This document shows positions 1,329-54,483 of a DNA stretch of 54,483 nt, piece after piece. The position numbers were made by a program, and so were the translations under genes. The notes under the pieces are model-generated. The model was not told the origin of the DNA and ran no database searches. It saw only the letters and a list, made by a program, of their open reading frames with translations. Position 1 is the stretch's first letter. Every line of letters starts with the position of its first letter. This stretch comes from Nitrospira sp. GTDB lineage: Bacteria > Nitrospirota > Nitrospiria > Nitrospirales > Nitrospiraceae. The DNA lies in NCBI GenBank assembly GCA_030692565.1, contig JAUYAO010000043.1, forward strand, positions 1-54,483, in the 5' to 3' direction.

Positions 1329-2541
<1,213 letters not shown>

Positions 2542-2565
2542 ACAAAGACTCCAACATCATCTAAG

Positions 2566-5152: not shown

Positions 5153-5185
5153 GGTTTCCTCCATCTCCATTGTTAAAGCTTCTGG

Positions 5186-5737
5186 TCAAAGTGGTGCGAC
5201 AGCGTAATAGTCGTATGCCAGTCGGCGGCGTGGATCGTTCGAACGTTTTTCGTCCATCGGTGACCAGTGCCAAAGTGTCGCCGCAAGGTCTGCCAAGTTC
5301 GCTTGGTCGCCCAGTAAGGCAAGTGCCCGTCGCAACAGGGTATACAACTCCTCTACGTCGTCACAGGCGAGCACACGGCGAACCCGCAAGTCAGACATGG
5401 CGGCCTTGTCGCTTCCGCTTTTAGGACTACCCATGCGGGTAGCAAGCGTCTCAGATGTTTCCGTCTTGACGCGCGCCGCCAATCCGGCAATGGCAGCGAG
5501 CTTCGGATAACGGTAGTCCGCCACGCCGCAACCTGCCCGACGTAACGAATTGAGCAGGCGGTGAAAGGCCGGACTCAGCATCACCTCGGTGAGGCTGGCC
5601 GCTCGGCGCAGCGCGGCACGTTCACCACGATCAGTCTCCAGAGACTGCCACCAGGTCTTAAGAACAGCGAACGATGGATGGTCGGGTTTGCCCTGAGGAA
5701 AGGGGTTGTCCGGTCTGGTTTTGTCGCTCATGAACAT
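5186..5737 (-). CDS. cse2: Cascade small subunit Cse2 (CasB/Cas11)
   Basis: A 183-aa mostly alpha-helical protein. Two copies of Cse2 form the belly of Cascade and stabilise the displaced DNA strand. The recognisable core is LKTWWQSLETDRGERAALRR near residues 25-45 and the Arg/Leu-rich helices after it. Small subunits are poorly conserved, so the call rests on this core, the size, and the position between cas8e (12 bp upstream) and cas7e. It ends in a short hydrophobic tail (YDYYAVAPL). Confidence 0.92.
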   Translation of the reverse strand: MFMSDKTRPDNPFPQGKPDHPSFAVLKTWWQSLETDRGERAALRRAASLTEVMLSPAFHRLLNSLRRAGCGVADYRYPKLAAIAGLAARVKTETSETLATRMGSPKSGSDKAAMSDLRVRRVLACDDVEELYTLLRRALALLGDQANLADLAATLWHWSPMDEKRSNDPRRRLAYDYYAVAPL

Positions 5738-5749
5738 CTCCTTATAAAA

Positions 5750-7315: not shown

Positions 7316-10031
7316 CTTTCACTCCTTTTTCGACGGTGAGTCCCATGACAGATGAATATGCGACACAGACTTCCTCGTTGCGCATACTTTTGGCATAGCC
7401 GCGCCATGTCTCGCCGTCTTTATTTAACGCGATGATGACGACATAACGACCTTCATCGGGCATGGTGAATCTAGCTGCCGCTAATGCTGCTGCCATGCGC
7501 TCACTTTCCTTGGCAATCAGACGATAGGGGACGGTAAGTTCGGATAGTGCCCATTCCATGCCGGTCGTAGTTTGTGCCCAGGGTCGAAGAACACCATCCA
7601 GCAGGCGAGCCAATCGTACACGTACTGTTTTTTCACCAAGACGGGTGGGAGCTTCGCCTTCGTCCTGCCATTGCAGGCTGGTGGGGTTGTAGCCTTCGTC
7701 AAAAGCGAGCAGGTTACCACGCGCCACCCCTTGGTCGGCGCGGCTAGCACCCTCGGCTCTCAGCGCTATTTCTTTGAGTCCCTCAGGCAAGCTGTCGAAA
7801 GCTGCCTCATCATATACGGCCTCTATCATGTCTCTCGCTTGCCGTGGCAAATCGAACCCGCCGTTTTGGAAAAGCCAGCGAGCGGTCAGCCAAAGTTTTC
7901 CGTGATCGGGATAAACCATCCCTCCCCTCGGAAGTAAATCAATCATCCAGCGCTTGGCTGCATCTTCTACGGGCATGGGCATAAGCACAGCCATCCGTGC
8001 GTCCCCGCGTCCATCGACAATGTTGGTATCTTGCAGCCGGTTACCGTCGGCATCTCGTTTGTGACGTTGCAACCGCCCGGCGCGCTGGACCACCAGATCA
8101 ATCGGAGCGAGGTCGGTCACCATGTCGTCGAAGTCCACATCCAGCGATTGCTCGATGACCTGAGTCGCGATAACCAGCTTTCCGCGTCTGGCGACGGGTG
8201 TGCTGTCGGGGCCGAAGACAACCTCAATCTTTTCCTTACCAATACGCAGGCGATCAACTAAGGCAAAGCGAGCATGAAAGAGCGTCGCCGGATATTCTGG
8301 ATAAGAGGCATTCCAGGCTTTCCAGGTTTCTACTGCATCCGCCACGCTATTGCGTATCCACACAACGCAACGGCCTTGCGCAAGCGAGTTTTGCAAGCGT
8401 TCCTGGACTTCCCTTTCTTCATGCAGCGCATGCACGACAACATGACGGGCAGATTCCGCGCGAGTTTCAAGCGGCTGTTCGACAAGCCCATTGGTGGAAA
8501 AATGGCTTGCTAGTGGATAACCAACTTCCATCGGGCACGCCACCGCCATGTCCGCACCCTCGGCGAAAACTTTGATATAGCGGGCGCGTTGGGACAGTGG
8601 AAGGGTTGCTGAAAGCAAAATGACCGACCCACCCAGAGCAGCATGAAAACGCAACAGACTAACCAGCAGCTCACCCATATAGGAGTCGCAGGCATGAACC
8701 TCATCCACCACCAACACCTTGTTGGCCAGTCCCAACAACCGCAGCGACTGATGTCGTGCAGGCAGCACTGCGAGTAGCGCCTGATCCAAAGTACCCACGC
8801 CAAAATCCGCCAACAGTGCTTTCTTGCGGCTATCTGCGAGCCAGGCTGTGCAATTTCTTGAGGCTGATTCCTCTTCTCCAGGACCATAGCCAGCATCCTG
8901 TCGATTAGCTTCTTCCAGGCGAAGTTTCAGTCGATCCGCTGAATGAGCCAAGGCAAGCTGCGCTTCTCCACCGGCGAAGAATCGCCGCCAAACATCATCC
9001 CGGCGGACCCGGTCGAACATGGCATCCGCCGTCGCCATGGTAGGCAACGCCAGATAGACACCCCGCCCCTGGCCCTCTGCCATGAGGCGGGCGGCTAACG
9101 TGAGCGCGGCCTCAGTCTTGCCGGAGCCTGTGAGCTCCTCTAGCACGAAGAGTTGAGGGCTGTTCGTGATATGGACGGTCTCGGCCCAGGCTTGTAAGGG
9201 CGAGGGAGTCTTGATGCTCGGGAACAGGTTTTCGAATCCCGAGAAGATGGGGATGTTTGGTGTAAGTCCGCTCTCAGCAACGGCTCGGTGTGCCTGGGGG
9301 AGTGCCGTGTCCCGCCAGTATTTTGGAAGTCCGACTTCTGGTTTTTGATAGGGAAACCAGAGAGTGTTAGAACCTAGCCAGTCCGCCGTCACCGCAAGTC
9401 CTGAAAGCAGCCAAGAGGATTGCCGATAGCGTTCAGACTGCCCGTCCTGGTGTACGGGCAATGGATGCCCATCGGGCATCAACAACTCCGTCGCTTCGAG
9501 AACAAACTGTCGGGTATCCTCCAGCACTTGAGCGGGAAAGTGATCCCGCAGCAGCCTTACAGAATCCCCGGTGGAGAGATTTTTCGGTGGTTTCCCGTGG
9601 TGACCGGTCACAGCCGCCAGCCAGGGTCGCATCTGTTGCCCACCACGTCGAGCTAGCTCTGGGTGATTCAGCCATTGAGGCAAGAACTCCATCAGTAGTT
9701 CATAGCCGAGGGTGTCGTGACGTTCCCCAGGTCTGGCGTCCTCAGTCCGGCCCTGAAGGGTCTGCCACAAATCGGGCCGCAAACTTTGGAAACCATCGCC
9801 GAACTTGCCTGAATCGTGAAGAGTCAAGAGAAACGCTACCCAATCAGGCAACTCATCCAAAGAAATTCCCGACAACCGCCCCAAACTCGCTAACCATGCG
9901 GGCTGCGCATTCAGCAGCACATGCCCGCACGCCGCCACATCCAGGCAGTGATACGCCAGCGGATGCCAACTTGTTGCGCCGACGTATTTCTCGTCGGCTT
10001 TGCCCCAGTATTGAAACAAATGATTCTGCAT
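7299..10031 (-). CDS. cas3: CRISPR-associated helicase/nuclease Cas3 (HD domain fused)
   Basis: A 910-aa effector that Cascade recruits to degrade target DNA. The N-terminal HD nuclease shows H28, the H72-D73 pair (TLHDSGKFG) and a GHHG motif near residue 143. The superfamily 2 helicase part has Walker A TGSGKT (301-306), a DEVH box (444-447), SAT (475-477) and motif VI QRAGRLQRH (650-658). All catalytic motifs are kept. It is the first gene of the operon. The upstream gap has no obvious Shine-Dalgarno sequence, but the MQNHLFQYWGKAD start matches the family. Confidence 0.97.
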   Translation of the reverse strand: MQNHLFQYWGKADEKYVGATSWHPLAYHCLDVAACGHVLLNAQPAWLASLGRLSGISLDELPDWVAFLLTLHDSGKFGDGFQSLRPDLWQTLQGRTEDARPGERHDTLGYELLMEFLPQWLNHPELARRGGQQMRPWLAAVTGHHGKPPKNLSTGDSVRLLRDHFPAQVLEDTRQFVLEATELLMPDGHPLPVHQDGQSERYRQSSWLLSGLAVTADWLGSNTLWFPYQKPEVGLPKYWRDTALPQAHRAVAESGLTPNIPIFSGFENLFPSIKTPSPLQAWAETVHITNSPQLFVLEELTGSGKTEAALTLAARLMAEGQGRGVYLALPTMATADAMFDRVRRDDVWRRFFAGGEAQLALAHSADRLKLRLEEANRQDAGYGPGEEESASRNCTAWLADSRKKALLADFGVGTLDQALLAVLPARHQSLRLLGLANKVLVVDEVHACDSYMGELLVSLLRFHAALGGSVILLSATLPLSQRARYIKVFAEGADMAVACPMEVGYPLASHFSTNGLVEQPLETRAESARHVVVHALHEEREVQERLQNSLAQGRCVVWIRNSVADAVETWKAWNASYPEYPATLFHARFALVDRLRIGKEKIEVVFGPDSTPVARRGKLVIATQVIEQSLDVDFDDMVTDLAPIDLVVQRAGRLQRHKRDADGNRLQDTNIVDGRGDARMAVLMPMPVEDAAKRWMIDLLPRGGMVYPDHGKLWLTARWLFQNGGFDLPRQARDMIEAVYDEAAFDSLPEGLKEIALRAEGASRADQGVARGNLLAFDEGYNPTSLQWQDEGEAPTRLGEKTVRVRLARLLDGVLRPWAQTTTGMEWALSELTVPYRLIAKESERMAAALAAARFTMPDEGRYVVIIALNKDGETWRGYAKSMRNEEVCVAYSSVMGLTVEKGVKDESDQ

Positions 10032-10292: not shown

Positions 10293-10727
10293 TCATTCCT
10301 CCCCTTCAATCCTCCATCCCTTCCCATAGGGATTGTTCGGCGAGTCGGACCTGAACGGATTCCCTGCGCCAAATTGGTTGTTCAGCGAGTCGGATGAAAA
10401 GGGCGAGCCGTAGCGGCCGAACTGGTTGCTGGTCGAGTCTGCATCGAACGGATTGGCGCTCAGCTTGCCGCGGTAATTCCCCTGCTGATCATAGAGTTTC
10501 GGAGCCTCGGTCGCAAAGGGATTGGTCGCCGAGCGGTTGCTGAACGGACTGCCGTAAGGGCTGAAGGGATTGTTGATCCCGTTTGGCGCAAACTGGCTGC
10601 CTTTACCGAAAGGGTTGGCCGTTGAATCGGCATCAAAGGGATTCGCGCTGAGATTGCCGAGGTCTTCAGCCTGGAGCGAGAATGGACTCCAGAGCAGAAC
10701 GAGAATCAGCAAGCCGATAGTCTTCAT
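10293..10727 (-). CDS. Exported NPF-repeat protein of unknown function
   Basis: A 144-aa protein with a signal peptide (MKTIGLLILVLLWSPFSLQA) followed by low-complexity sequence. Short units of the form N-[PQ]-[FY] spaced about 10-18 residues apart dominate it, for example SANPFDADSTANPFGKG, NNPFSPYGSPFS and NNQFGAGNPF. The start is the ATG at 10727, which has AGGAGA upstream and leads straight into the signal peptide; an upstream ATG at 10760 would lie inside the preceding gene. It lies 20 bp after the VWA gene and is probably co-transcribed. I do not recognise a known domain, and a structural or cell-surface role is only a guess. Confidence 0.75.
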   Translation of the reverse strand: MKTIGLLILVLLWSPFSLQAEDLGNLSANPFDADSTANPFGKGSQFAPNGINNPFSPYGSPFSNRSATNPFATEAPKLYDQQGNYRGKLSANPFDADSTSNQFGRYGSPFSSDSLNNQFGAGNPFRSDSPNNPYGKGWRIEGEE

Positions 10728-10747
10728 GGCGGTCTCCTTTCTCCCGG

Positions 10748-11437
10748 TCACTTCAGCCACGAAGGCGGTTCCTGATCGCCGGACAATGGTGTCGGCGAGG
10801 GTGGCGTCTCTTTGGGCATGAACGCATCGGCCGCTGGCTGCCCGTCACCACGGCGGTAGTTCGCAGTCGCCTGGCTTAATTGATCGAACGTGTGATCGAC
10901 CGTCCGGCGGCAGAAGGAAATGCGGCTGTCTCCCGCAATGCCGAGATCGCCACCGGCGGCCCAGATATCGTGGTCGGCGCCGAGGTAGAGAAAGGCCCAA
11001 CCCTGTTTCTCATAGTGCTTGATGAGATCGAACACCTGCTTCCGGCTGTATTCCTGCGAAGCATTCTCCCGCCCGTCGGTCAGGATGACGCAGAGTCTCC
11101 TGGCCTCGACCGGCGCTTCCTGCGTTGCCAGAGAAAGCGTGCGCCCGATGGCATCGTAGAGCGGCGTCCCGGCCTGAGGGCGATAGGTTTCTACATCCAG
11201 ATCGTTGACGGCTGACACCGGCACCGCCCGGTACCGCACTTCTGTTTTTCCGGCATTGAAGAGGGTGAGGGTGAAGCGCGTCTCGGCCGGCTCCCGCCTG
11301 AGTGTGACGAGGTAGTGATTGAACCCGGCGAGGGCGGCGCCTTTGCACGATTGCATCGAGCCGCTTTCGTCGAGAATGAGCGTGATGTAGAGCGGTTGAG
11401 GACCCGCAGCCTGCTGCCCGTTCTGTCTGTCGTTCAT
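10748..11437 (-). CDS. VWA-domain protein
   Basis: A 229-aa protein built around one von Willebrand factor A domain. The MIDAS metal site is intact at its first element (DESGSMQS, D23/S25/S27), and TPLYDAIG and ILTDGREN supply the usual Thr and Asp of the later MIDAS loops. There is no signal peptide, so it should be cytoplasmic. The C-terminal 30 residues are Pro-rich and disordered. Its start has an unusually strong ribosome site, GGAGGTGATC. It precedes the NPF-repeat gene. VWA proteins usually mediate protein-protein contacts; the partner is unknown. Confidence 0.88.
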   Translation of the reverse strand: MNDRQNGQQAAGPQPLYITLILDESGSMQSCKGAALAGFNHYLVTLRREPAETRFTLTLFNAGKTEVRYRAVPVSAVNDLDVETYRPQAGTPLYDAIGRTLSLATQEAPVEARRLCVILTDGRENASQEYSRKQVFDLIKHYEKQGWAFLYLGADHDIWAAGGDLGIAGDSRISFCRRTVDHTFDQLSQATANYRRGDGQPAADAFMPKETPPSPTPLSGDQEPPSWLK

Positions 11438-25452: not shown

Positions 25453-25661
25453 CGTTCTCTGAACTTTAGTGCGCGCCTGCACGACCGTGCATCTGCGCAC
25501 CCGGCTCCTCCTCCTTGCAGGACACTTCCCATCAACCAACCTCCGCAGCATCACAGCGAAGCATCGTTTTTCACCTTTTCATCGGGAATCAGCGCCTCGA
25601 TCGCAACGGTACTGTTCTTGCTGAACCTTGATACCAAGTCACTTTTAAGACGCGAGGTGTC

Positions 25662-27353
25662 ATGGACTCGATACCCATACTCATCACTATCGCATCTCCG
25701 TTACTCGCGAGCATCGTGACGGTCCTCTTCGGACGGCTGCTCGGCGAACGAGTTGCTCAAATAGGCGTGGCGGCGTTGACTCTTTCGACCGGGACCGCCC
25801 TCCTGTCCTTCTATCAGATCTTCGGCTCTGACTCTCTCGCTCTCACGCTCCCAGGGCTGCCGGCGCTGCTGACCCCCGCACTGCTTTACGATCGCCTGGC
25901 CGGAATCATGGTGATCCTCATCAGTGTCGTGAGCTTGGTGATCCACGTCTATTCCCGGCAGTATATGCAGGGCGATCCCGATTACGTCAGGTTCTTCGGG
26001 CTGCTCGGCCTGCTGACCTTCGCGCTCCTGACTCTGGTCACGAGCGGGCACCTCTTGTGGTTCTTCCTCGCCTGGCACACCGTGACCTGGCTGCTCGCCA
26101 CATTCATTTCCTTTAACCGCGCCAGTGCCGCGGCCCGCCAAGCGGGACGGACGACTCTGCTGATCCAAGGGTTCGGAGATGTCGCACTCCTGCTGGCGAT
26201 CCTGACACTCTATGCGGCCTTCGGCACACTTGATCTGACGGCGCTGTTCCGCGCACTCGAGGCGATGCCGAGCCGCCCGACCCTCTGGACCGGAACCCCG
26301 TTCGAATCGGATGCGATCACGAGCAGCACGCTGCTGATGGTCTTCGCGATTATGACCAAGTCCGCGCAGTTTCCGTTTCATATCTGGTTGCCCGGCACGA
26401 TCGAAGCACCGACTCCTGTTTCGGCGATGTTGCATGCCGGCATCGTGAATGCCGGAGGATTTCTGGTGAACCGCCTGGCGCCGCTGTTCGGCCAGTCTCC
26501 GACCACGCTCTATATCTTGTTCGTGGTGGGCGCGCTCACCGCCTTGATCGGCGCCTCAACCATGCTGACCCAATCGAGCATCAAACGCACGCTCGCCTAC
26601 TCGACCATGGGACAGATGGGCTATATGGTCATGGAATGCGGCCTGGGCGCCTTCGCCCTCGCCATCTTTCACCTGTGCGCCCACGGTCTTTTCAAAGCCA
26701 CGCTGTTTTTGAATTCAGGCGATCACATCCACAAGGCGAGAACCGAGTACAAGCTGCCCGAGCCTCGCAGGGTCAGCGACACGCCGAGGTTCTCGTTCGT
26801 TCCCTGGGGAACCGGACTCGCCATCACGCTCATTCTGCCGCTCCTGATTCTACTGATGACCCACGGCCTGGTCCATATTTCCCTGTTCGAATCACAGAGC
26901 ACCATGATCTTTCTGTTCTTCGCCTGGGTCACCTCGGCCCAGGCCATCTTCAGCCTCTACCGGCTGAACGTGGCCGCCTCCTGGAAAGTCTCGCTCACGA
27001 TGCTCGCGACCCTGACCTTCATCGTCCTCACCTATCTCTGGGCCGGGGACGCCTTTACGCACTTCCTCTATCCGGCGCCGGCCCATGTCGCCGCCTATTT
27101 CCAAGCGGCCGCCTGGCACGAGGGCCTCTTCGATGCCGTCATCGTCGCGTCAACCCTGATCATCATCGGAGTCTGGATGCTGCTCTACGGCAAGGCGCAC
27201 GGCTACCAGCCGATGCTCCCCGCAGGATTCACCACTCTGCACACGCGCCTCTACGTGGGGTTCCTCGCCGGCCTCTATGTCGAGGATCTGCTGCGGGCCC
27301 TGCGCCCGGGGCTCAAACCGTTACGTGCGGCGTCTCGTCGGCCGCCCGGCTGA
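25662..27353 (+). CDS. NuoL/DabB-like proton-conducting membrane protein
   Basis: A 563-aa integral membrane protein of the complex I L/M/N antiporter fold, with about 14 helices. The core (MTKSAQFPFHIWLPGTIEAPTPV in pieces, then MLHAGIVNAGGF and YSTMGQMGY) carries the conserved Lys and His of the proton channel. It is shorter than NuoL (about 610 aa or more) and lacks the long lateral helix, which fits DabB, the membrane half of the DabA-DabB inorganic-carbon pump. The expected DabA (DUF2309, about 800-1000 aa) is not next to it. A PII-like gene follows by 104 bp. Stand-alone subunits of Mrp or hydrogenase complexes are alternatives. Confidence 0.85.
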   Translation: MDSIPILITIASPLLASIVTVLFGRLLGERVAQIGVAALTLSTGTALLSFYQIFGSDSLALTLPGLPALLTPALLYDRLAGIMVILISVVSLVIHVYSRQYMQGDPDYVRFFGLLGLLTFALLTLVTSGHLLWFFLAWHTVTWLLATFISFNRASAAARQAGRTTLLIQGFGDVALLLAILTLYAAFGTLDLTALFRALEAMPSRPTLWTGTPFESDAITSSTLLMVFAIMTKSAQFPFHIWLPGTIEAPTPVSAMLHAGIVNAGGFLVNRLAPLFGQSPTTLYILFVVGALTALIGASTMLTQSSIKRTLAYSTMGQMGYMVMECGLGAFALAIFHLCAHGLFKATLFLNSGDHIHKARTEYKLPEPRRVSDTPRFSFVPWGTGLAITLILPLLILLMTHGLVHISLFESQSTMIFLFFAWVTSAQAIFSLYRLNVAASWKVSLTMLATLTFIVLTYLWAGDAFTHFLYPAPAHVAAYFQAAAWHEGLFDAVIVASTLIIIGVWMLLYGKAHGYQPMLPAGFTTLHTRLYVGFLAGLYVEDLLRALRPGLKPLRAASRRPPG

Positions 27354-27909: not shown

Positions 27910-29898
27910 ATGCCGCCAGCACAACCCGGCAGTTCCCGCGAACCTGCCGTAGCAAAACCGGAAGTCGCCGCCGCTGAAATCCTGGCATGGGTCAGCGACT
28001 GCATCGAGGGTGGGCTCTGCCTGATCGCGCGCGGCATATTAATTTTCGAAAATGCGCAATTCGGCGAATTGGTGGAAACCCCGGCCAAGGAGGACCTTGC
28101 TCCATCGAAGTCCGGCGGCTCCCTGCGAGCACGGCTATTCGCCGACGCGCTCGCATGGAACGAGGAGTCGCTGGGGACTCGCGGGACCATGACCTATCAC
28201 CTGACCCATCGTGACGGACAGCCACTGATTTATGACTGCCGATTCAACGTGGTCCCCTACCACGAAGATACCGGCGTGCTCCTCGTCCTGCAGAACGTGA
28301 CGGAGCGGACCGTCCTCGAGCATGAAGCCTCCCAGGTCGCCCGATTCCAAACGGTGCTGGCCCGCATTGGAACCCTTGCCGTCAGCGACGCCTCGGCTCA
28401 AGACCTCATGAACGAGGCCGTGCGACATACGGCGCAAGCGCTGGGCGTCGAGCTCTGCAAGATCCTGATCGCCAGGGAGTCCGACGATCACCTCGCCGTC
28501 GTGGCGGGGATCGGCCTCGAAGAGGAGCTGATCGGCAAACTGACGATCGAAGGCGGCACGCATTCACAGGCCGGCTTTGCCATTCGCGAGCGCGTGCCCG
28601 TGGTCGTGCGGGACCTCCGGAATGAAACCCGGTTTACCCCTTCGAAGCTCCTCACCGAACATGGCGGCATCGCCGGCATGTGCGTCCCCATGCTCGTCGA
28701 GGACCGCGTCTACGGCGTCATGACGGCTCATTCGAAACAGGTCAGAGACTTCACCGGCAAAGAACAGGAATTCCTCTGCGCCGTTGCGAACACGGTGGCC
28801 ACGGTCCTGGAACGGCGGCGGCGGGCCGACACGCAGCGGGATCTCTATCACCGGCTCTTCATGTCCGCGCAGGACGGCATCATGCTCACCGACACCGACG
28901 GCCGCATCCTGGAATGGAATCCCGCGCTCGAACGGATGACGGGCTGGCGTCGCGAAGAGGCCCTCGGGCAGCGTCCCGGCATCTTGAAATCCGGCAAACA
29001 TGCGCCGGAGTTCTACGATCGACTCTGGCAAGCGATTCGCGCAGGCCAGGCGTTCGCCGACCGCTTCGTCAACCGGCGCAAAGACGGGTCTGAATTTCTG
29101 GTCTGGGAAAGCGTCAGCCCCGTGAAAGACCGGGACGGCACCACCCAATTCTATATGGCCATCCTCACCGACTTGAGCGAACGGGAACAGATGCTGGAAG
29201 CGCTGCGCCATACCGAACAGGTCAAGCTCGTCGGACAATTGGCCGGAGGGATCTTGCATGAAGTACGCAACCCCCTGATCGGCCTCGGCAGCCTCGCCAC
29301 CCATCTGGCCGAGCAGAACCAGCTCCCCCAGTCCGCCAGAGACCGCTGCCGTCTTATCGCGCGCGAGGCGGCGCGGATCGACGAACTGCTCGAATCGCAC
29401 CTGGGACAGCTGCGGCCGCGGCCGTTCGATCTCCGGCCCTGCGATCTGCCCTCGCTCATCGACGACACGCTGGCCCTGCTCCGTCCCAATCTGTCCAAGC
29501 AGCGCATCGCCGTCCGGAAGACGATGGCAAATAACCTGCCGATGGTCGAGGCCTCGCGCGCCCATCTTCAGCAAGTGTGTCTGAACATCACGATGAATGC
29601 GATCGACGCCATGCCGGACGGAGGCGAGCTGGCGATCACGATCGGGCCTGAAACCAAGCGCGGCGCCGGGGTGCTCCTCCGCTTCTCGGACACCGGCAAG
29701 GGCATCGCCCCGGACAACTTACAGCGGATTTTCGAACCCTTCTTCACCAACGGCAAGGCCAAGGGCGTCGGGCTCGGACTGACGATCACGCATGACATCG
29801 TCGAGCGCCATGGCGGGCAGCTGTCCATCAGCAGCCCGCCTGGCAGCGGCGCCGTGGTCGATGTATGGCTGCCCGTTGGAACACGAGGCCTCGCATGA
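27910..29898 (+). CDS. Sensor histidine kinase (PAS-GAF-PAS-HisKA-HATPase)
   Basis: A 662-aa soluble kinase without membrane segments. A degenerate PAS domain (about 25-135) is followed by a GAF domain (about 145-300), a PAS domain (about 310-425; TDTDGRILEWNPALERMTGW), the phosphoacceptor H450 in GGILHEVRNPL, and an ATPase domain with the N box (N563), G1 box (FSDTGKGI) and GVGLGLTI. This is the NtrB-like type that senses a cytoplasmic signal. Its stop overlaps the start of the response regulator (ATGA), so the two form one unit. Confidence 0.94.
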   Translation: MPPAQPGSSREPAVAKPEVAAAEILAWVSDCIEGGLCLIARGILIFENAQFGELVETPAKEDLAPSKSGGSLRARLFADALAWNEESLGTRGTMTYHLTHRDGQPLIYDCRFNVVPYHEDTGVLLVLQNVTERTVLEHEASQVARFQTVLARIGTLAVSDASAQDLMNEAVRHTAQALGVELCKILIARESDDHLAVVAGIGLEEELIGKLTIEGGTHSQAGFAIRERVPVVVRDLRNETRFTPSKLLTEHGGIAGMCVPMLVEDRVYGVMTAHSKQVRDFTGKEQEFLCAVANTVATVLERRRRADTQRDLYHRLFMSAQDGIMLTDTDGRILEWNPALERMTGWRREEALGQRPGILKSGKHAPEFYDRLWQAIRAGQAFADRFVNRRKDGSEFLVWESVSPVKDRDGTTQFYMAILTDLSEREQMLEALRHTEQVKLVGQLAGGILHEVRNPLIGLGSLATHLAEQNQLPQSARDRCRLIAREAARIDELLESHLGQLRPRPFDLRPCDLPSLIDDTLALLRPNLSKQRIAVRKTMANNLPMVEASRAHLQQVCLNITMNAIDAMPDGGELAITIGPETKRGAGVLLRFSDTGKGIAPDNLQRIFEPFFTNGKAKGVGLGLTITHDIVERHGGQLSISSPPGSGAVVDVWLPVGTRGLA

Positions 29899-31295
29899 CC
29901 TGGCAATTATTACTGGTAGAAGACGAGCCCTCGGTGCGCGAGGCCTTTGCCCTCCGGCTGAGCGATCAGGGCTATATCGTGCAAACCGCCGGCTCCGGCG
30001 AAGAGGCGTTCGCCCTGCTGCGCTCGTTTGAACCGGACATCCTCATTCTCGACCTGGTCATGCCGAACCTCTCGGGGCTCGACGTGCTGGCCCGGGTCAA
30101 ACAGACATCCCCTCATCTGCTGGTCATTCTCTTGACGGCGAGGGGAACCGTCAAGGATGCGGTGGAAGCAACGAAGCTCGGCGCCTTCGACTTCGTCGCC
30201 AAGTCTATCGATATGGAGGACTTGCAGCATGCGCTCCGCCGCGCCACCGAACTGCTCACCCTGCAACGCCAGGTCCGGTTACAGAGCGGACAGGACGCGG
30301 AACGGTATGCGCTGGATCGGATTATCGCCAGGAGCCCCGTTACGCAGGCCTTCCTGAGTCAGCTCCGGGAACTGGCAAACACCGACCGAGTCACCGTGCT
30401 GCTCCAAGGCGAAACCGGCACCGGCAAACAGTATATGAGCCGCGTGATTCACTACAACAGCGCCAGGGGACAGAAGCCCTGCATCGAGGTGGACTGTCCG
30501 TCGATCCCCCGCGAGCTGTTCGAAAGCGAATTGTTCGGGCATGAAAAAGGATCATTCACCGGCGCCCTGGGACGAAAGGCCGGATTGATCGAGATGGCCG
30601 AGGGCGGAACGGTCCTCTTCGACGAGATCGGCGACCTGCCGCTCCCGTTACAGGCCAAGCTGCTCCGCGTCATCGAAGAACGGACCCTGCGCCGCGTCGG
30701 TGGGTCGGCGACCATCCCCGTGGATGTCCGGTTCATGGCGGCCACCAACCGCAATCTCAAAGAGGCCGTGGCCAAAGGCGAGTTCCGCGAGGATCTCTAC
30801 TTCAGATTGAACGTCGTCACGTTGACCGTCCCGCCGCTGCGCGAACGAGGCGAAGACATCCTCCCCCTCGCCGAACAATTCATGGCCCGCTCCGCCGTCG
30901 CCCTCAAAAAGCCGGTGCGCATGATCGGAGAGAGCGGCAAGGCAGTCCTGCGCCGCTATGCCTTTCCTGGTAACGTTCGCGAATTGGGCAATCTCATCGA
31001 GCGGGCCGTGCTGTTCTGCCCGGGCGATTCGCTCGAAGCCGGGAATTTTCCAGCCGATGTGCAAGCCGAGCATTCCGCGAGTCCCCGCACAAGGCCCCTC
31101 CACGCACCGGAAGCTCCCGCTCCGGACGACCCGAACAACGTGCACCTGACGTTTCGACTCGGTGAACAGTCTCTCTCGGATTTGGAAGACCGCATCATCG
31201 CCGAAGTCCTTCGGCGTTCCGACGGCAATAAAACCCTTGCGGCCAAACACCTCGGCATCACCCGTTGGATGCTCGACCGGCGCCGAAAAACATAG
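29895..31295 (+). CDS. Sigma-54-dependent response regulator (NtrC family)
   Basis: A 466-aa activator of sigma-54 RNA polymerase. The receiver has the acidic pair (E9-D10), phosphoacceptor D53 and K103. The AAA+ domain has Walker A GETGTGK (172-178), Walker B LFDEIGD (241-247) and the sigma-54 contact loop GSFTGA (219-224), with Ser in place of the usual Ala in the second position. The C-terminus is a Fis-type helix-turn-helix (LAAKHLGITRWMLDRRRK). The start at 29895 overlaps the kinase stop codon. Targets should be promoters of the TGGC-N8-TTGC type, which I did not locate nearby. Confidence 0.95.
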   Translation: MTWQLLLVEDEPSVREAFALRLSDQGYIVQTAGSGEEAFALLRSFEPDILILDLVMPNLSGLDVLARVKQTSPHLLVILLTARGTVKDAVEATKLGAFDFVAKSIDMEDLQHALRRATELLTLQRQVRLQSGQDAERYALDRIIARSPVTQAFLSQLRELANTDRVTVLLQGETGTGKQYMSRVIHYNSARGQKPCIEVDCPSIPRELFESELFGHEKGSFTGALGRKAGLIEMAEGGTVLFDEIGDLPLPLQAKLLRVIEERTLRRVGGSATIPVDVRFMAATNRNLKEAVAKGEFREDLYFRLNVVTLTVPPLRERGEDILPLAEQFMARSAVALKKPVRMIGESGKAVLRRYAFPGNVRELGNLIERAVLFCPGDSLEAGNFPADVQAEHSASPRTRPLHAPEAPAPDDPNNVHLTFRLGEQSLSDLEDRIIAEVLRRSDGNKTLAAKHLGITRWMLDRRRKT

Positions 31296-44188: not shown

Positions 44189-44617
44189 GCGCCTCATCTC
44201 CTTGTGGTTCATCTGCTGGATGGAGGGCGCGCCGGCGCCGCACAGGGCTGGACCTCGAAGGACTATCGCACGGCGCGCCGGGCGGTGGATCGAGCGATGG
44301 GAGCGGTGCTGGAGATCTTGAAAGAACAGGGTCTGCTCACACGCACCACGGTCTTTGTCACGTCCTTACAGTAAGTGGAACCGGCGTGGCACAGGGGGCA
44401 ATCCACGACAGTCTCATCGCTCGTCCCATGGATTGCCTTCGGGGCTGGGATCAAGGCAGGTCACCCCATCCATCAGCCGATTTCCATTATCGATACGGGC
44501 GCGACGGTGATGCGGACCCTCGGGCTCGAGACCCATATGGAATGGGACAGCCGTGTGATCGAGGAGATCTTTCGCGACGCCGACGCCATCTCCGCTATTC
44601 CGACGAAGGGACGGTAG
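44189..44617 (+). pseudogene. Truncated duplicate of the phosphatase-like gene
   Basis: Reads APHLLVVHLLDGGRAGAAQGW and continues to IPTKGR-stop, matching the last 45 percent of the intact gene at 46355-47344 at roughly 80 percent of residues. The first half is absent, and the match begins 15 bp after the stop codon of the 413-aa gene. A 5-bp insertion and a later 1-bp insertion relative to the intact copy create an in-frame TAA (44372-44374) and then restore the frame. It is a dead 3' fragment, likely left by a recombination between duplicates. Confidence 0.85.
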
Positions 44618-44623
44618 ACTCTT

Positions 44624-45888
44624 ATGACTCATCTCGAAATGATCAGGCGAATGGTCTTTGGCTTGCTCGCGGTCAGCGTTTCCACCACGCCCGGTTATGG
44701 ATCGGGGTCGGGCGGGCATCACGATGCGGCCAGTTCCGCTGGCGCGATCATGGTCCGCAATGAGATCGAGATTGAGCGGTCATCATTCATGGTCTTCGTC
44801 GCACGCAAGAAGGCACCATTCTGGGGCTGCTCCCTCGCACAGTCCCTGGCCGGTTTACTCGGACCGAACTGCAGGAATTTGAACGCCGTATCCGCAACCG
44901 CAGCCTCTTCGACTGTGTCGTGGTCGCCGTCGGGGATCGGATGTTGACGGTGGAGGTGCTGGAAAAGTTCACCCTGGCACCGATCCTCAACTTTTCGACA
45001 GGGAGCAGTCTGCCAGATCTCAGCGCTACCGCCGGCCTGGTGGAATACAACATCGGCGGGACAGGAACCCAGCTTGGCGGTCAATTGAGCTATAGCCAGC
45101 GGAGCACCAACGTTGACCGGTGGCTCTCCCAGCACAGTTTCCACCCCATCCGGTGGGCTCAGGAAGCAGAGGCCTCGTACAATGCGAACGGCATCAGATT
45201 TTCCGATTCACAGGCGGCCTGGGATCGCCGGTGCCTTGGAGGAGAATATGAACTCAAAGGTCCTTGCCTCTACGGATCGCCGTTGCGATACGAAGCCGTT
45301 CTGAGAGCGTATCAGGAGACCGTCGAAGACGCGAAAGGACCGCATCCCTCCAACGGATACTTTGTCGGCCTCGCGCCCGAAGTGACGTGGGACCATGTCT
45401 CAGCGGAATTCCGCCCCGGCTACTTTCTAGGCGCCAACCAGAATCGCCATGAAGCGCGTCTTCGCTACCTGCAAGGCATCCCCCTCGCCTCGACGCCGGT
45501 GCTCATGATCAACGGCGTCGCCGAAGCGGTCAACAGGGGCAATCCCAACCACAGCGTCCTCCTCGGCAGTATCGCCGGAGTCCGGGGACTGTCGGACAAT
45601 CTGTTTCGAAACCGGGCGCAGACCTATAGCAACCTTGAACTGCGCCACGCGATCCAGCTCGCGGCACGCTGGGCGCTCCAAGGAGTCGTCTTTTCAGATG
45701 CCGGCGCCTTCCAACGCTTCACTGACCAAGGTCAGCTGCGCAGTTGGCGTGGCGCCGTGAATATCGGGGCCGGCTTCAGAGTGGTGCCGAGGTTTCTTTC
45801 GAACACATTGCTGCGTGTGGACTTCGCCCAGTTGCCGGCCCCGACACCGAACTCGCTCGTTCCGTTCGGCATTACCCAATATTTCTGA
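44624..45888 (+). pseudogene. Omp85/BamA-like outer-membrane protein, frameshifted
   Basis: Codons from 44624 give a signal-like start (IRRMVFGLLAVSVSTTPGYG) and run in frame to EIEIER near 44778. A one-base deletion there throws the frame off, and the continuation is VIIHGLRRTQEGTILGLLPRTV...FTRTELQEFERRIRN in the next frame, a POTRA-like domain. This leads into a 322-codon barrel (from 44920) with VRGLSDN in place of the Omp85 VRGF/Y motif and a terminal Phe (GITQYF). One added base would give an Omp85-type protein of about 420 aa with a single POTRA. As written, the product would lack a signal peptide. It could be a sequencing error. Confidence 0.8.
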
Positions 45889-46007
45889 GGAGCAGCGTAG
45901 ACTCATTGCACGATCGCGTACGCGCCCTGTCAGGATGCGGAAAAAGTCCGCCGTCATTCACAGGCCGTGACTCGTGAAGCGAGCCTCGTGAAGGGGGAGC
46001 AGCCGCT

Positions 46008-46104
46008 GGTTTCTCTCGTTTATTTGGTCTGTCTCGTGTGTTTGGTTGAACAAGGCCGACTCGTTGAACAAAACAAACCAGATGAACCAGATCAACTCGA
46101 CAAG
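46008..46104. repeat. TTTGGT/AACCAG inverted-repeat block
   Basis: The left half consists of variations on TTTGGTC and TCTCGT (TATTTGGTCTGTCTCGTG, TTTGGTTGAACA). The right half carries the complementary words (AACAAACCAGATGAACCAGA, TCAACTCGAC). The whole can fold as a long imperfect hairpin. I know this style of repeat from Nitrospira-type intergenic regions; that attribution rests on memory, not on a search. Confidence 0.55.
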
Positions 46105-46212
46105 CCACGCTTCACACAGAACGCTGTGCCGTGCGGCCACACACGACCACCGGGCGCAACGTGCCTCCACGCACGGCATCACCGGCGACATAGGAGATGG
46201 CTCATCCGGTTC

Positions 46213-46299
46213 CTGTCAGTGGATGAGCGGTCCACTGACAGATTCGTGAATCGCTGTGCGGAGTTACTCAATCCTCCGCACACTGCTGACTCTGAGCAG
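46213..46299. repeat. Chain of four perfect hairpins
   Basis: Four perfect inverted repeats follow each other without gaps: CTGTCAGTGGA with its inverse (46213-46241, 11-bp stem, 7-base loop), GATTC/GAATC (46241-46252), TGTGCGGAG/CTCCGCACA (46255-46282, 9-bp stem) and CTGCT/AGCAG (46283-46299). They lie 56-142 bp upstream of the phosphatase-like gene. They could be a structured leader RNA, a small RNA or a REP/recombination element. Confidence 0.65.
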
Positions 46300-46354
46300 A
46301 CTGCGGAACTCTCTTTGCAGTAGCTTTCGGCAATAACCAGGGAGAGAGCGGCCC

Positions 46355-47344
46355 ATGAAGACTATGTCCTTCGTCATCGCCTTGCTTCTGACCGGTGCGT
46401 CTGCCTGGGCAGCGACGGCTCACGCCGTTCCCGCGACACCTTCATCTTCGTCGGAACAGACGGTTCCTGAGCATGTGATTCTGTTTGTGCTGGAGGGCAT
46501 CGATCAACCGGCACTCAAGGCGGGGCCGATGCCGGTGTTAAGTCGGCTGGTGAACCAGGGATCGGCGACGTGGTCGGCCAAGACCGTCACGCCCCCTCTC
46601 CGGCTGCCCGCGATGGCCTCCCTCCTCACCGGACTGCCGGTTGAAAAACACGGCATCACCTGGGACGCGTTTGAATTCAGCCGAGGCTATCCCCGGCCTC
46701 CGACGGTCTTCGATTATCTCGACCTCAGCGGCGGACGAGACAGCGCCATCTTTTTCATGGACGAATCGCTGTACCAGCTGGCAAAACCGGAACCCTATAC
46801 GGATTACCAGATGTGCGGGCCGCTCAAGCCTGAGTGCAGTCCTGAGCGGCTCGTCTCCTACATCAAGCAGTATTTCAAGAAGGCCGCGAGCGGGCACGGA
46901 TACGGGCATGCGATTCTGGCGCTGCCGCATCTCCTCGTGGTGCATCTGCCGGATGGAGGGCGCGCCGGTGTCGCGCAGGGCTGGACCTCGACGGACTACC
47001 GCGCGGCGCTCCGGTCGGTGGATCGGGCCATGGGGTCGGTGCTGGAGATCTTCAAAGAACACGGACTGCTCACGCGCACCACGGTGCTCGTCACGTCCTT
47101 AAGTGGAACCGGCGCGGCGCCGAGCCAATCCACGACAGTCTCATCGCTCGTCCCATGGATTGCCTCCGGCGCCGGGATCAAGAGCGGACATGCGATTCGT
47201 CAGTCCGTCTCCCTTGTCGATACCGGAGCCACCGTATTGCGGGCGCTTCAACTTGAGACCCATACCGAGTGGGACAGCCGTGCAGTCGAGGAGATCTTTC
47301 GCGACACCAGTGTTGTCTCCGTTATTCCAACGAAGGGACGGTGA
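46355..47344 (+). CDS. Alkaline-phosphatase-superfamily protein, probably inactive
   Basis: A 329-aa exported protein (signal peptide to about residue 25). The fold is that of type I phosphodiesterase/nucleotide pyrophosphatases: VILFVLEGIDQP, TPPLRLPAMASLLTGLPVEKHGI, PHLLVVHLPDGGRAG, DYRAALRSVDRAMGSVLEI. Several metal ligands are missing: the first Asp is Glu (E47), the His expected after the LPDGG segment is absent, and the SDHG motif reads SLSG. It therefore looks like a pseudo-enzyme that may bind rather than cut. A 3' fragment of a close duplicate lies at 44189-44617. Confidence 0.82.
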   Translation: MKTMSFVIALLLTGASAWAATAHAVPATPSSSSEQTVPEHVILFVLEGIDQPALKAGPMPVLSRLVNQGSATWSAKTVTPPLRLPAMASLLTGLPVEKHGITWDAFEFSRGYPRPPTVFDYLDLSGGRDSAIFFMDESLYQLAKPEPYTDYQMCGPLKPECSPERLVSYIKQYFKKAASGHGYGHAILALPHLLVVHLPDGGRAGVAQGWTSTDYRAALRSVDRAMGSVLEIFKEHGLLTRTTVLVTSLSGTGAAPSQSTTVSSLVPWIASGAGIKSGHAIRQSVSLVDTGATVLRALQLETHTEWDSRAVEEIFRDTSVVSVIPTKGR

Positions 47345-47350
47345 GGACTC

Positions 47351-47812
47351 ATGACCTCTTCCGAGTACAGATCGTATCTCGCTCCACAAATCCGGCGCAT
47401 GATCCTGGGTTGCGCCGTTGTCGCATGGACTGCGTGGATGGGGTCCGCCGCCATTGCCGAATCGCGCGAGCCATCGGCAATTCAATACCCCATCACCATC
47501 AATGCCACCTCGATTGTGTCGCAGAGTTGGTGGCAGGTGCCGGGCGTGACGCCCTCGATTTGGACCTCCGATATTGAAACGTCCGATGCCTATCGGACGT
47601 CGGAGCCTCGCGTGCTTCAGTTACAGCCGGGGCATTACAAATTTATCAGTTTTACGTTCGACTTTCCCTTTGAGGTGACGCCGGAGGGAATGGTAGCGTA
47701 TGCCTCGTCGCTCAATCAATGCGTGGACGGACGGGGCACCGCAACCTTGATCGTGCGCTGCAAGCGGACCTACCCGCATGGGGGACAACCGGAGTATCCC
47801 CTCGCTCCATGA
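47351..47812 (+). CDS. Exported protein of unknown function
   Basis: A 153-aa protein with a long signal peptide (IRRMILGCAVVAWTAWMGSAAIA) and a mature part of about 117 residues with aromatic-rich strand-like sequence (SIVSQSWWQVPGVTPSIWTSD, GHYKFISFTFDFPFEVTPEG). Two Cys near the end (NQCVDG and VRCKRT) may pair. The gene follows the phosphatase-like gene by 6 bp and precedes the next by about 20 bp, so all three are probably one operon. No family recognised. Confidence 0.7.
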   Translation: MTSSEYRSYLAPQIRRMILGCAVVAWTAWMGSAAIAESREPSAIQYPITINATSIVSQSWWQVPGVTPSIWTSDIETSDAYRTSEPRVLQLQPGHYKFISFTFDFPFEVTPEGMVAYASSLNQCVDGRGTATLIVRCKRTYPHGGQPEYPLAP

Positions 47813-47832
47813 ACAAGGAACAGAGAGGCACT

Positions 47833-50211
47833 ATGGGAATGCAACATCGCTTGACGAAATGGTTGTTCGTGATGCTGGCAATGGTCGGGCCGACACTGGC
47901 TCACGACGGATCGGCGGCCATTGGGGCCAAGCCGACAACGTCCGGACAGAGCGGCCCGGCTCGCATGGTGTCGCAATATGGTGCGGCGCTCGCCGGTAAC
48001 CGGGTGGCGGAGTGGGCTGCGCTCGATCTGGGCTGCTTGACACTCAGACGCCAACGAGGCGCATCTGAGCAAACCGACAGGACCTGCTGGGACGACACGC
48101 TGAAAGCCCATCGTGAATTAGTCCAGGATCAACCGGAAACCGGAATCTTCGAGACGGGGGGGCGGGGGGTCGGTTTCGGCTTGCTGTCCGAAACGCATCG
48201 TCATGCCGATTACTGGAAGGACTATATGCCGGCGGTCGTCGTCTCCCCTGCCGTGATCGGCAAAGATGGGGGACCAGGCCCCGTCCTTGAGGTCCTCAAC
48301 GCCTCGCCCGTCAGGCCGTTCGCGTTGAACAATCTCACGGGCCAAGAGCCGGTACGGGTTTCCGGCCATACCGTCGAGGTTCGGGTATCCTACCCGGATC
48401 CGCTGACGGCTCCCCTCGCGCTGCGCCCCGGAGAGGTGTGGTGGGCCAGCGGCGTCCTGCGCCGGTACGGTCCTGTCAGGGAAGTGACGGTCCGCTTCGT
48501 GGTGGTTTCAGGATTGCGAAAGCTGGGATATCCAGTCGATCAGGCCGTCGTCAACGAGGCCCTTTCCGGTGCCCCGGTGCAGGTCGGCATTCACTACGGG
48601 CGTCTTCCGCAATCAGCCGATCCCGGTGGGCGGCAGAACGATGAGGTGAAGAGTCGCTTGGGGGCCGGCGGGCTTGTCCTGGGTTCCGCTCGCTGGTGGG
48701 ACAGGAAGGACGCGAACCAAGCCTTTGCCGCCGGGCTGGCCCGCGCCGAACAGATGCCGCGCTCTACCGAACGAGCGAGGCTGCTGACCAGGCTCACGCT
48801 CATCGATCAAGCCGATCCGGCGCTGCACACCGTCATTGCCGACGATCGGCTCCAGACATTTCTTCGGGAGGGTCTGACCAAGAGCGGAATCTCAGGACCG
48901 GATGAGGCCGTGGCGACGAGGCTGGCCGAGCTGTACTGGAACCTTCAGGCGCAGACCTGGCGCCAGGAGCTCACCGAGGTCGCAATGGGTCACTCCACGG
49001 CAGCGGAGGCCCTCTATCAGGCCATTGAATCGTTTGAACGTGTGACAGCCGGCGGACAGGCGCCCCCCGAACGGCGGCGGCAGCTCGGCGCGCTCTATCG
49101 ATGGAACAACGATGCCCCCTCCGCGCTCGCGGCGCATGAAGCGCTACTGAAAGATACCGCCTCAGGAGGATCGCTGCACGGCCGGCTCTTATCCGAACTC
49201 GCCTGGGACCGGATTCAGTGGCTCTCCTGGGAGCGGCGCCATGGTCATCCGTGGCTGGAGCAGGCCCGCCAGGAAGCCGAGCAGGCGTTGAGCCAGGTGG
49301 AGACTCCCGTCGAGAAGCTCCTGGCGGCCTATGCGCTGGTCCTGGTGGAGGCCCTGCGTGTGCCTCGCGAACCGGCGCATCTGCAGGAACGATTGCAGAC
49401 CGCGAAAATCTGGCACGATCGCGTCTCCGGCGCCGTCGGCGTCTGGCCCTATCTGGTCGGGAACGATGTCGTGAAAGCCTTGCTGCCGAACACCGAGCAG
49501 GTGACATTGCCGACGCCGGTTCGTGCATCGGATGTACTCAATGTCGAAGTCCACGCCAAACCGCGGCGGCAAGATATCGTGTGGCAGTGGAACTTCGACC
49601 AGGACGCGCTCGATGCGCCGCCCGCGGGATTTGTGGCCTGGAGCACGCCTGGAGCGGAGCCCTCCGGCTGGCGTGTGCTCCCGGACGGCCAGATCCCCAC
49701 GCGGGGCAACCTGGTCGTCCAGGATCGCCCTTGTGTGGCAAGTGAGTGCGCGCATCTCCTGCTAGCCGACCGCATCCGCACCACCTTTCCGGATGTCACC
49801 GTGCAAGTGCAAGATCTGTCGGCGGACGGAGCCGGCGAAGCCGGGATCGCGCTGGCTGTGCGCGACAACCGAAATTTCTATGCGGTCACGCTCAATCCCA
49901 CGACGGGCAAGTTAACCTCCAGGCGCGTGCTCGATGGCCGCACGACGGTGCTGGGGGAAATTACGGTCAAATTGGCTCAGCGCCCCTGGCACAGCCTGCG
50001 GGTTCAACGGATCAATTTCATTCATCTCGATCGCGGCCGGCTCAGCGTGTTCGTCGACGGTGCGCAGGTGGCTGCGGTAGCGGACGAGTGGATTCCACAG
50101 GAGGGGCTGATCGGACTGATCACCATCGGCCGGACGGCGGCCCAGTTCGACGGATTGCACGTGCTGGATCTCGTATCGAATCGCACGTTTTCCGGTCCCG
50201 CCGCCTACTAA
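47833..50211 (+). CDS. Large exported protein with C-terminal LamG-like domain
   Basis: A 792-aa protein with a signal peptide (KWLFVMLAMVGPTLA). The first part has no clear domain; the middle (residues about 300-520) is helical with repeat-like segments (ERARLLTRLTLIDQADPALH, RRRQLGALYRWNNDAPSALAAHEALL) that resemble TPRs. The last 190 residues look like a concanavalin/LamG-type beta sandwich (AGIALAVRDNRNFYAVTLNP, SVFVDGAQVAAVADEW), which binds glycans in other proteins. The start at 47833 has AGAGAGG upstream; an earlier in-frame ATG lies at 47809. Likely periplasmic or surface-bound. Confidence 0.8.
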   Translation: MGMQHRLTKWLFVMLAMVGPTLAHDGSAAIGAKPTTSGQSGPARMVSQYGAALAGNRVAEWAALDLGCLTLRRQRGASEQTDRTCWDDTLKAHRELVQDQPETGIFETGGRGVGFGLLSETHRHADYWKDYMPAVVVSPAVIGKDGGPGPVLEVLNASPVRPFALNNLTGQEPVRVSGHTVEVRVSYPDPLTAPLALRPGEVWWASGVLRRYGPVREVTVRFVVVSGLRKLGYPVDQAVVNEALSGAPVQVGIHYGRLPQSADPGGRQNDEVKSRLGAGGLVLGSARWWDRKDANQAFAAGLARAEQMPRSTERARLLTRLTLIDQADPALHTVIADDRLQTFLREGLTKSGISGPDEAVATRLAELYWNLQAQTWRQELTEVAMGHSTAAEALYQAIESFERVTAGGQAPPERRRQLGALYRWNNDAPSALAAHEALLKDTASGGSLHGRLLSELAWDRIQWLSWERRHGHPWLEQARQEAEQALSQVETPVEKLLAAYALVLVEALRVPREPAHLQERLQTAKIWHDRVSGAVGVWPYLVGNDVVKALLPNTEQVTLPTPVRASDVLNVEVHAKPRRQDIVWQWNFDQDALDAPPAGFVAWSTPGAEPSGWRVLPDGQIPTRGNLVVQDRPCVASECAHLLLADRIRTTFPDVTVQVQDLSADGAGEAGIALAVRDNRNFYAVTLNPTTGKLTSRRVLDGRTTVLGEITVKLAQRPWHSLRVQRINFIHLDRGRLSVFVDGAQVAAVADEWIPQEGLIGLITIGRTAAQFDGLHVLDLVSNRTFSGPAAY

Positions 50212-52857: not shown

Positions 52858-53190
52858 CCGCTCGGTTTCGTGCGGCCTACTCCCTTTTTCCCGATCTCCC
52901 AATCTGTGGTCTTTCCCTGCACGACAGATTGTCGTGACTGCGCCCGCGTGTAGGCCCGCACGAGCGTGTGTCTATGCACTTGCACTTGAGCATGTGGCTC
53001 TGTGCTTACGAGTCGTTCGGCAACGCCGGTGCACGGTTTCTCCTTATTCACGAGAAGGTTACATTCCACCATTGAAGGAATACCGTGTCGCGGCCTTCTT
53101 CTTGCTGTATGTAGCTGTATGTATATGAGATATGAGGACCGCAGCGGGAGTTGTGAACAGCATGATATAGACGAAGGACAAGCCGATGCC
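52858..53190 (+). other. Gap after cysD
   Basis: About 330 bp with no recognisable gene where cysN would be expected. Composition is lower in GC than cysD. It leads into the transposase remnant, so the right flank of cysD was probably replaced by insertion events. Confidence 0.4.
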
Positions 53191-53198
53191 CTACACCG

Positions 53199-53418
53199 AT
53201 ACACAGCAGCACTCACGATTACGAAGCGCTACCGGCTGCGCTGGCAGATCGAGTTGTTCCTCAAGTGGATCAAGCAGCTTCTTCGTTTCAAGGCGCGCTT
53301 TGGCACCGAAGAGAACGCCGCACAACACAAATCTGGATCGCGATGTCCATCTACGCGCCGGGGGCGCATCGTCAAGAAGCGCCTGGCACCCTCTCCGCCA
53401 GCCTGGCCAAAACCCTGA
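53199..53418 (+). pseudogene. IS4-family-like transposase, 3' remnant
   Basis: ITKRYRLRWQIELFLKWIKQLLRFKARFGTEENA matches, as I remember the family, the Y-R-x-R-W-Q-I-E-L-F-x-K-W-I-K motif near the end of IS4-type DDE transposases. Continuations TQIWIAMSIYA and IVKKRLAPS are split over two frames, with frameshifts near 53325 and 53362. The catalytic 5' half is missing, so it is inactive. Confidence 0.75.
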
Positions 53419-53645: not shown

Positions 53646-54345
53646 ATGACAACTCGTGAAAAAGAAAGAACTGTATCGTCACACGAACCCAAAGATACAA
53701 ACAGTACAAGGGACGAGATGCCTGTAAATACAGGGCCGGTTACCATACCTGGATCAGCTGATTTTCAGGCACAATACGCTGGTCGCGATGTCGCAGCCGG
53801 ATTGATCGCTGGGTCAATGGCTATTCCATTGACGGTGGGCATCGCCATGATGTCCAAGTATCCCATCAAGGTGGGGTTGGCCACCGTCGCGTTGCCTGCT
53901 TGATCGGCTGGCTCAATGCCTGGATCAGGCCTGGCAACTATATCGGCTGGCCGGAAATCGCGGCAGGCCTGGCGCCGGTGTTGGCCGTGGGCGTGACCAG
54001 CTTTGGCCTGGGGAATATGGCCTTTGCAGTTTTCCTGACTGCGACCTTTCAAGCCGTCATATAGAAATTCAACTGGCAGCGATATATTTTGGTTGCCGTG
54101 CCGGTGTATCTGGTCGAAAGGCTGCTGGCGGGCGCCGGTTTGAAGATTGCCCTCAAGTTTCTTACGTTCACCTATGAGCTTCCTGAAGGAATGGTATCCG
54201 CCGATACGTTCTGGAACGGCGTGCGCATACAGATGGGCCTGATATCCATGGCTGGTTATGTTGGCTTTGTGTATCTGTTTTTAAAGTTCAAGAACACACA
54301 GCCCGCCGTTCCTTATTTCGTGCTGATCATAGTAGGAACAGTCCT
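53646..54345 (+). pseudogene. Decayed second copy of the SulP-family transporter
   Basis: It matches the intact transporter at 40063 from PVTIPGSADFQAQYAGRDVAAGLIAG through PAVPYFVLII, with most residues identical. A one-base loss near 53893 shifts the frame at TVALPA-stop, an in-frame TAG lies at 54062-54064 (Trp codon in the other copy), and similarity ends at about 54345, where different DNA begins. The last 40 percent of the gene is gone. It retains a longer N-terminus (TTREKERTVSSHEPKD) than the intact copy. Confidence 0.88.
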
Positions 54346-54483
54346 AGCAGCCTGTCGGTCTTCTCATCAATTTTGCCTGCAACCCTGCATTGTGGGGAAA
54401 ATTTGATCGGGTTTTCCTCACACAGATTTTTAGATTTCCATCAAATAGCTTTTCACACGCTCAAGCAGCACCGTTGCCGTCGC
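54346..54483 (-). mobile_element. Left end of a further insertion sequence, partial
   Basis: The sequence after the SulP break (GCAGCCTGTCGGTCTTCTC) resembles insertion-sequence ends such as the GAGCCTGTCCGAG end of the MITE. On the minus strand codons from 54483 to 54430 read ATATVLLERVKSYLMEI followed by TAA, a plausible C-terminus of a transposase whose body lies beyond the window. It would explain the truncation of the SulP copy. Family not determined. Confidence 0.45.

Follow-up and report, generated by a model that had tools for sequence, protein, structure and literature searches.

The window analysed here, a 54,483-nucleotide contig of Nitrospira sp., carries a forward-strand gene for a phosphodiesterase or nucleotide pyrophosphatase (46355–47344, PF01663), which is preceded by an intergenic region with a row of inverted repeats (46213–46299). 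The gene is followed on the same strand by a reading frame without a Pfam match (47351–47812), in an order that is retained in related clusters, and by a large ORF (47719–50211), also without a Pfam match, which has relatives in related clusters and whose true start may be later. A related phosphodiesterase protein is found in 165 of the 175 genomes of the family, the window type with a sigma-54 promoter forming a smaller set; relatives of the gene in named genomes come from Nitrospira or Nitrospirota records, with two labelled uncultured Nitrosospira. Upstream, an 80-aa ORF (44375–44617) resembles by eye the C-terminal end of the phosphodiesterase, which suggests a truncated second copy. Another apparently broken or fused copy is seen in a related genome (locus L214 of G033, 10378–11307), where a promoter of the phosphodiesterase type and the start of the gene lead into an AIR-carboxylase/LarB-like ORF. 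A separate part of the window (1621–10031) encodes the CRISPR-cas genes Cas1, Cas_CT1975, Cse1 and Cas3 (assigned by Pfam), which we take to be a type I-E-like system.

Inverted repeats, dyads and the phosphodiesterase promoter

The original prediction described the intergenic repeats as four perfect hairpins in a row. All four inverted repeats are present, with no strand assigned: stem 1 (46213–46241; 11 bp, 7-nt loop), stem 2 (46241–46252; GATTC-GT-GAATC, 5 bp, 2-nt loop), stem 3 (46255–46282; 9 bp, 10-nt loop) and stem 4 (46283–46299; 5 bp, 7-nt loop). Stem 2, however, shares one base with stem 1, is omitted from the minimum-energy fold and cannot close as drawn over a 2-nt loop, so that three workable hairpins remain rather than four. 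That they exceed chance was confirmed. The 87-nt row folds at -41.3 kcal/mol (z = -5.13), a stability equalled by none of 200 shuffles, and its summed perfect-stem length of 25 bp (stems of at least 5 bp, loops of 3–12 nt) was matched in none of the 5440 windows (87 nt each, at 10-base steps through the 54 kb) and in none of 1000 Markov sequences of intergenic composition.

Between the hairpins and the gene lies a sigma-54 -24/-12 promoter, CGGAACTCTCTTTGCA (46304–46319, forward strand; CGGAAC-TCTCT-TTGCA), in which GG and GC are found at the -24/-12 spacing; the sigma-54 consensus is TGGCAC-N5-TTGCW. The genome also encodes rpoN (one PF04552 match, E 7.3e-57), so that the dinucleotide spacing and the cognate sigma factor gene expected for a sigma-54-dependent promoter are both present. 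In an alignment of eight orthologous phosphodiesterase upstream regions (the window and seven relatives), GGAAC-N5-TTGCA is kept in all eight, as it is in a ninth promoter, that of G033. Ten of the 16 columns of the element are invariant in this alignment, and its mean pairwise identity is 0.85, as opposed to 0.51 for the spacer. Sigma-54 promoters start approximately 12 bp after the -12 element; by this geometry, we infer that transcription begins near 46330, past the hairpins, which would then lie at about -117 to -31 and outside that mRNA. A scan of 45850–46420 found no sigma-70-like promoter. When candidate sites were ranked by an ad hoc sigma-54 score (with a cut-off of 15.3 that we chose ourselves), 9 of 82 phosphodiesterase upstream regions exceeded the 99% level of mononucleotide shuffles, namely eight promoters that carry the dyads described below and one, L061, without a dyad. 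Four other dyad promoters (L025–L028) scored 15.5–16.5, under the 99% shuffle level.

On the far side of the hairpins there are two forward-strand enhancer dyads of the type GTGC-N6-GCAC, GTGCGGCCACACAC (46131–46144) and GTGCCTCCACGCAC (46161–46174), placed 30 bp apart and with the second approximately 143 bp before the -24/-12 element. Each has 8 of 14 columns invariant in the eight aligned sequences, with mean pairwise identities of 0.78 and 0.74, respectively, versus 0.51 for the spacer. The location, conservation and spacing of these elements can be read directly from the DNA, and the conserved promoter that surrounds the hairpin stretch bears out its earlier assignment to the regulatory region of the phosphodiesterase gene. 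The pattern GTGC-N5-CRCAC occurs seven times in the window (1.17 expected; none of 100 shuffles reached seven), although the sites of the window and its relatives are not independent evidence because the pattern was first read there.

Among the 82 phosphodiesterase upstream regions (74 loci, the window and seven further regions, with uncurated match starts taken as gene starts), 12 have one or more dyads within 300 bp and the other 70 have none there; a 700-bp rescan of these 70, three of which were shorter, gave a loose dyad match in two. In the 12 dyad regions, the best sigma-54 site begins either 142–146 or 118–119 bp past the start of the last dyad. The set of 82 does not include the phosphodiesterase copies G062 C50, G080 C84 and G128 C30, each of which has, by coordinates, a dyad pair approximately 270 bp upstream of the match. 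A composite pattern that joins the upstream sites to the promoter with a gap of 90–120 bp has two matches in the genome of the window, one of them on contig C8 (L147). Just upstream of the enhancer, a further inverted repeat (46006–46090; 23 nt, 78% complementary) has one partially similar counterpart at another site of the genome, on C41 (81% over 42 nt).

Genes beside the dyads and a candidate regulator pair

Double dyads were found in 64 of the 175 family genomes, compared with nine matches in five genomes for a reversed-pattern control. We determined the gene beside the paired dyads at 30 of the 111 dyad places in Nitrospiraceae, mostly one per genome, and found DabB in 21 cases, DabA in four, the phosphodiesterase in two and SulP in one. 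One of these four genes thus adjoins the dyads in 28 of the 30 loci, and no reference protein was assigned in the remaining two. At one locus, L151 (G014), the 3 kb give no match to any of the 11 reference proteins, and an ORF spans the dyads. When the window and ten regions were mapped, each of the eight DabB-like genes seen had a dyad pair in front of it, with a sigma-54 match at or above the cut-off in five of the eight (L211, L213 and L214 fall below 15.3).

In the window itself, paired dyads (25469–25500, forward strand) and a sigma-54-like site, CGGTACTGTTCTTGCT (25607–25622, forward strand), precede a forward-strand gene for a NuoL-family protein (25662–27353). The profile match is to the family and not DabB-specific, and we refer to the product as DabB-like because its relatives adjoin DabA. 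DabA is firmly identified (PF10070, with an E value of 1e-269 in G160) and is encoded twice in the genome of the window (on contigs C49 and C58) and not in the window. These two copies serve as an internal control: the dabA gene on C49 has one dyad and a sigma-54-like site, CGGCCTTGTTCTTGCT, and the C58 locus is free of dyads. With DabA of PF10070 and a NuoL-like DabB, the predicted transporter is a DAB inorganic-carbon pump. A third promoter, near the end of the contig, combines paired dyads (52948–52979, no strand assigned) with a sigma-54-like site, CGGCCTTCTTCTTGCT (53091–53106, forward strand), which shares its stretch of DNA with an ORF (53002–53418) that carries a transposase fragment (PF01609). 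The frame-broken stretch that follows (53646–54483) is SulP-like by eye. This third operon seems to be disrupted in the window.

The hairpins had been proposed to control an envelope operon, but the genes concerned are linked to inorganic-carbon transporters instead. Since an enhancer and a sigma-54-like site are common to dabB, dabA, sulP and the phosphodiesterase gene, the putative circuit most likely controls inorganic-carbon uptake.

Behind the DabB-like gene, two overlapping forward-strand genes encode a GAF-PAS histidine kinase (27910–29898), which is the proposed sensor, and a sigma-54 activator (29865–31295), which is the putative dyad binder. The activator has the NtrC-family architecture of a receiver, an AAA+ domain with an FTGA loop and a Fis-type helix-turn-helix (HTH; PF00072, PF00158 and PF02954). 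The usual loop motif of sigma-54 activators is GAFTGA; the variant GSFTGA is present in all 30 activator sequences compared, which had been chosen for carrying G[AST]FTGA. In the same 30 sequences, 23 of the 39 columns of the Fis-type HTH are invariant, a conservation equal to that of the AAA+ domain.

The sigma-54 activator domain has 25 matches in the genome of the window, so the assignment of this particular activator to the dyads rests on location. Orthologues (at least 71% identity) were found in 61 of the 175 genomes, at 62 places, two of them partial. Both an orthologue and a double dyad are present in 51 genomes, the dyad only in 13, the activator only in 10 and neither in 101 (Fisher p 8e-22, in a test that ignores the relatedness of the genomes). 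Four genomes, G014, G169, G170 and G171, have near-identical double dyads and no close activator orthologue. In the activator-bearing genomes, 63 of 98 dyad pairs are within 20 kb of the activator, and for 20 of the 62 activator genes no strict pair falls within that distance; a single dyad stands beside the activator in all six of the 10 activator-only genomes that were scanned. Of 30 activator loci drawn from the 62 places, 25 contain a dyad (33 dyads versus 3.7 expected); among 24 loci for other sigma-54 activators in the genome of the window, one does. The locus in the window owes its place among the 25 solely to a dyad at 32768 that is not assigned to the regulon. The dyads and the phosphodiesterase gene come immediately after the activator gene in G160, G145 and G063. 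In the window the activator gene is 15 kb from the phosphodiesterase gene, so the cluster looks rearranged there.

Conservation of the hairpin region and alternative explanations

The four stems differ greatly in their conservation among the orthologous promoters. Stem 1 has all 11 Watson–Crick pairs in the window, eight in G160, seven in G145 and two to five in the other five relatives; stem 4 has five of five in the window and zero to three in the seven relatives, being paired in 30% of alignment cells. None of the relatives has stem 1, 2 or 4 intact. By this comparison, stem 1 and stem 4 belong for the most part to this lineage. In stem 3, 81.9% of cells hold a standard pair and two pairs are changed on both sides; this stem is contained in a conserved mid-block (46239–46283, no strand assigned) with a mean pairwise identity of 0.70 and 13 invariant columns. 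The corresponding identities are 0.50 around stem 1, 0.42 around stem 4, 0.51 in the spacer and 0.68 in the leader after the promoter. Alternative pairings at 46200–46228 and 46275–46307 are not conserved and were dropped. A sequence model of the mid-block and promoter has matches in 11 of the 175 genomes, one in each, and nine of them are at a promoter of the phosphodiesterase type (the eight aligned ones and that of G033). The other two, in G101 (E 3.3e-5) and G099 (E 0.004), appear coding-like by eye, lie in loci without a dyad and were judged to be chance matches.

The original prediction had offered a structured leader, a small RNA and a REP or recombination site as possible identities of the hairpins. 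A leader RNA (riboswitch or attenuator) or a small RNA would agree with the strong predicted fold and with the conservation of stem 3, most of which is also retained by RNAalifold. Stems 1, 3 and 4 together have nine double-change pairs against a shuffled mean of 6.4, and the structure is 64% paired against 37–48% in all six slid versions, an advantage to be expected because the structure was taken from one of the aligned sequences. Nevertheless, nine double-change pairs were reached in 44 of 500 shuffles, the covariation score over the named stems was as high in 57 of 500 and the percentage paired in 83 of 500. The named stems are thus not clearly above shuffles and no helix that covaries above background was found, and stems 1 and 4 are absent from the RNAalifold structure. 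The conserved sigma-54 site, moreover, sets the probable start downstream of the hairpins in a region without a sigma-70-like site, and there was no Rfam match over the gathering score in the window. We consider an RNA function unlikely. Still less probable is a REP- or MITE-like mobile repeat or a recombination site. The inverted repeats are certainly dense within the intergenic gap, but a search of the 4.17-Mb genome returned, besides the hairpin row itself, only short chance matches of 14–20 nt with E values of 0.58 or worse rather than the several copies that such an element would have, and among the 175 genomes the model finds only the orthologous promoters and the two weak matches of apparent coding sequence.

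Just as improbable is a transcription terminator of the upstream gene (44920–45888), which is on the same strand and has the hairpins on its 3' side: they begin 325 bp beyond its stop codon, and the single terminator-like site in 45850–46420 is located elsewhere, at 45993–46016 (0.5 expected from shuffles). A more serious contender, to which we would give a substantial minority share of the probability, is that the hairpins are a functionless, lineage-specific spacer and that only the enhancer and the promoter matter. This would account for the loss of stems 1, 2 and 4 in the relatives, for the spacer-like identity around stems 1 and 4 and for the confinement of the model to one match per matching genome, mostly at this type of promoter. 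It does not account for the mid-block with stem 3, which stands clearly above its surroundings. We suggest that the mid-block is probably a DNA element of the phosphodiesterase promoter, either an accessory operator or a bending or architectural site; this role, argued from conservation, is the weakest step of the explanation that follows.

The putative circuit and its relation to known systems

Taken together, these data make it likely that the hairpin region is the DNA between a two-site enhancer and the sigma-54 promoter of a two-component-controlled regulon for inorganic-carbon uptake. In such a circuit, the sensor kinase would phosphorylate the response-regulator activator, which would bind the paired GTGC-N6-GCAC dyads on the 5' side of the -24/-12 element. 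By looping the DNA and hydrolysing ATP, the activator would then open the sigma-54 RNA polymerase at 46304–46319, with transcription starting at the position given above. The conserved part of the hairpin region, located between enhancer and promoter, would act as DNA. The signal, to judge from the target genes, may be low CO2 or bicarbonate. A bolder version, which we put forward tentatively and rate a little short of even, is that a dedicated two-component sigma-54 system of Nitrospira senses carbon shortage and co-induces DabA, DabB, SulP and a secreted phosphodiesterase, while a second factor bound to the stem 3 block gates the looped complex.

The predicted system shares with known sigma-54/NtrC-family systems the GG-10-GC spacing of the -24/-12 element, the upstream dyads and the receiver–AAA+–Fis activator with a kinase partner, and differs from them in the GTGC-N6-GCAC dyad, the GSFTGA loop and the inorganic-carbon transporter targets; the half-sites of NtrC's own site are ordered differently. 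It resembles the DAB pumps in that related clusters combine PF10070 DabA with NuoL-family genes. DAB operons of bacteria with the Calvin–Benson–Bassham (CBB) cycle are linked to LysR-type regulators, whereas the Nitrospira clusters appear to be under the control of a sigma-54 activator. The PrsK/PrsR pair of PEP-CTERM systems likewise consists of a kinase and a sigma-54 response regulator, and TIGR02915 is among the matches of the activator, but at 364.1 bits this match is below the cut-off of 502.6, and the target genes were seen without PEP-CTERM annotation.

In passages of PMC8115632, Nitrospira are described as nitrite oxidisers that use the reductive tricarboxylic acid (rTCA) cycle for CO2 fixation, and N. 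marina as having SulP/BicA-like transporters. Parts of two other papers, one on the structure of DAB2 (PMC13144422) and PMC12628692, also belong to this background, and a review asks whether dissolved-inorganic-carbon transporters of rTCA organisms follow the same pattern of expression as those of CBB organisms (PMC10880623). Among the open-access papers listed, a scope outside which subscription papers and preprints fall, none was seen that connects DAB pumps with sigma-54 or with an enhancer-binding protein. The candidate regulator, sites, promoters and targets named here for the control of inorganic-carbon transporters in rTCA Nitrospira make the question of transporter expression testable. 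Outside the carbon regulon, a double dyad and a sigma-54-like site were also observed before an ORF at L149 (G008, 1501–3036), which by eye is RND efflux-pump-like.
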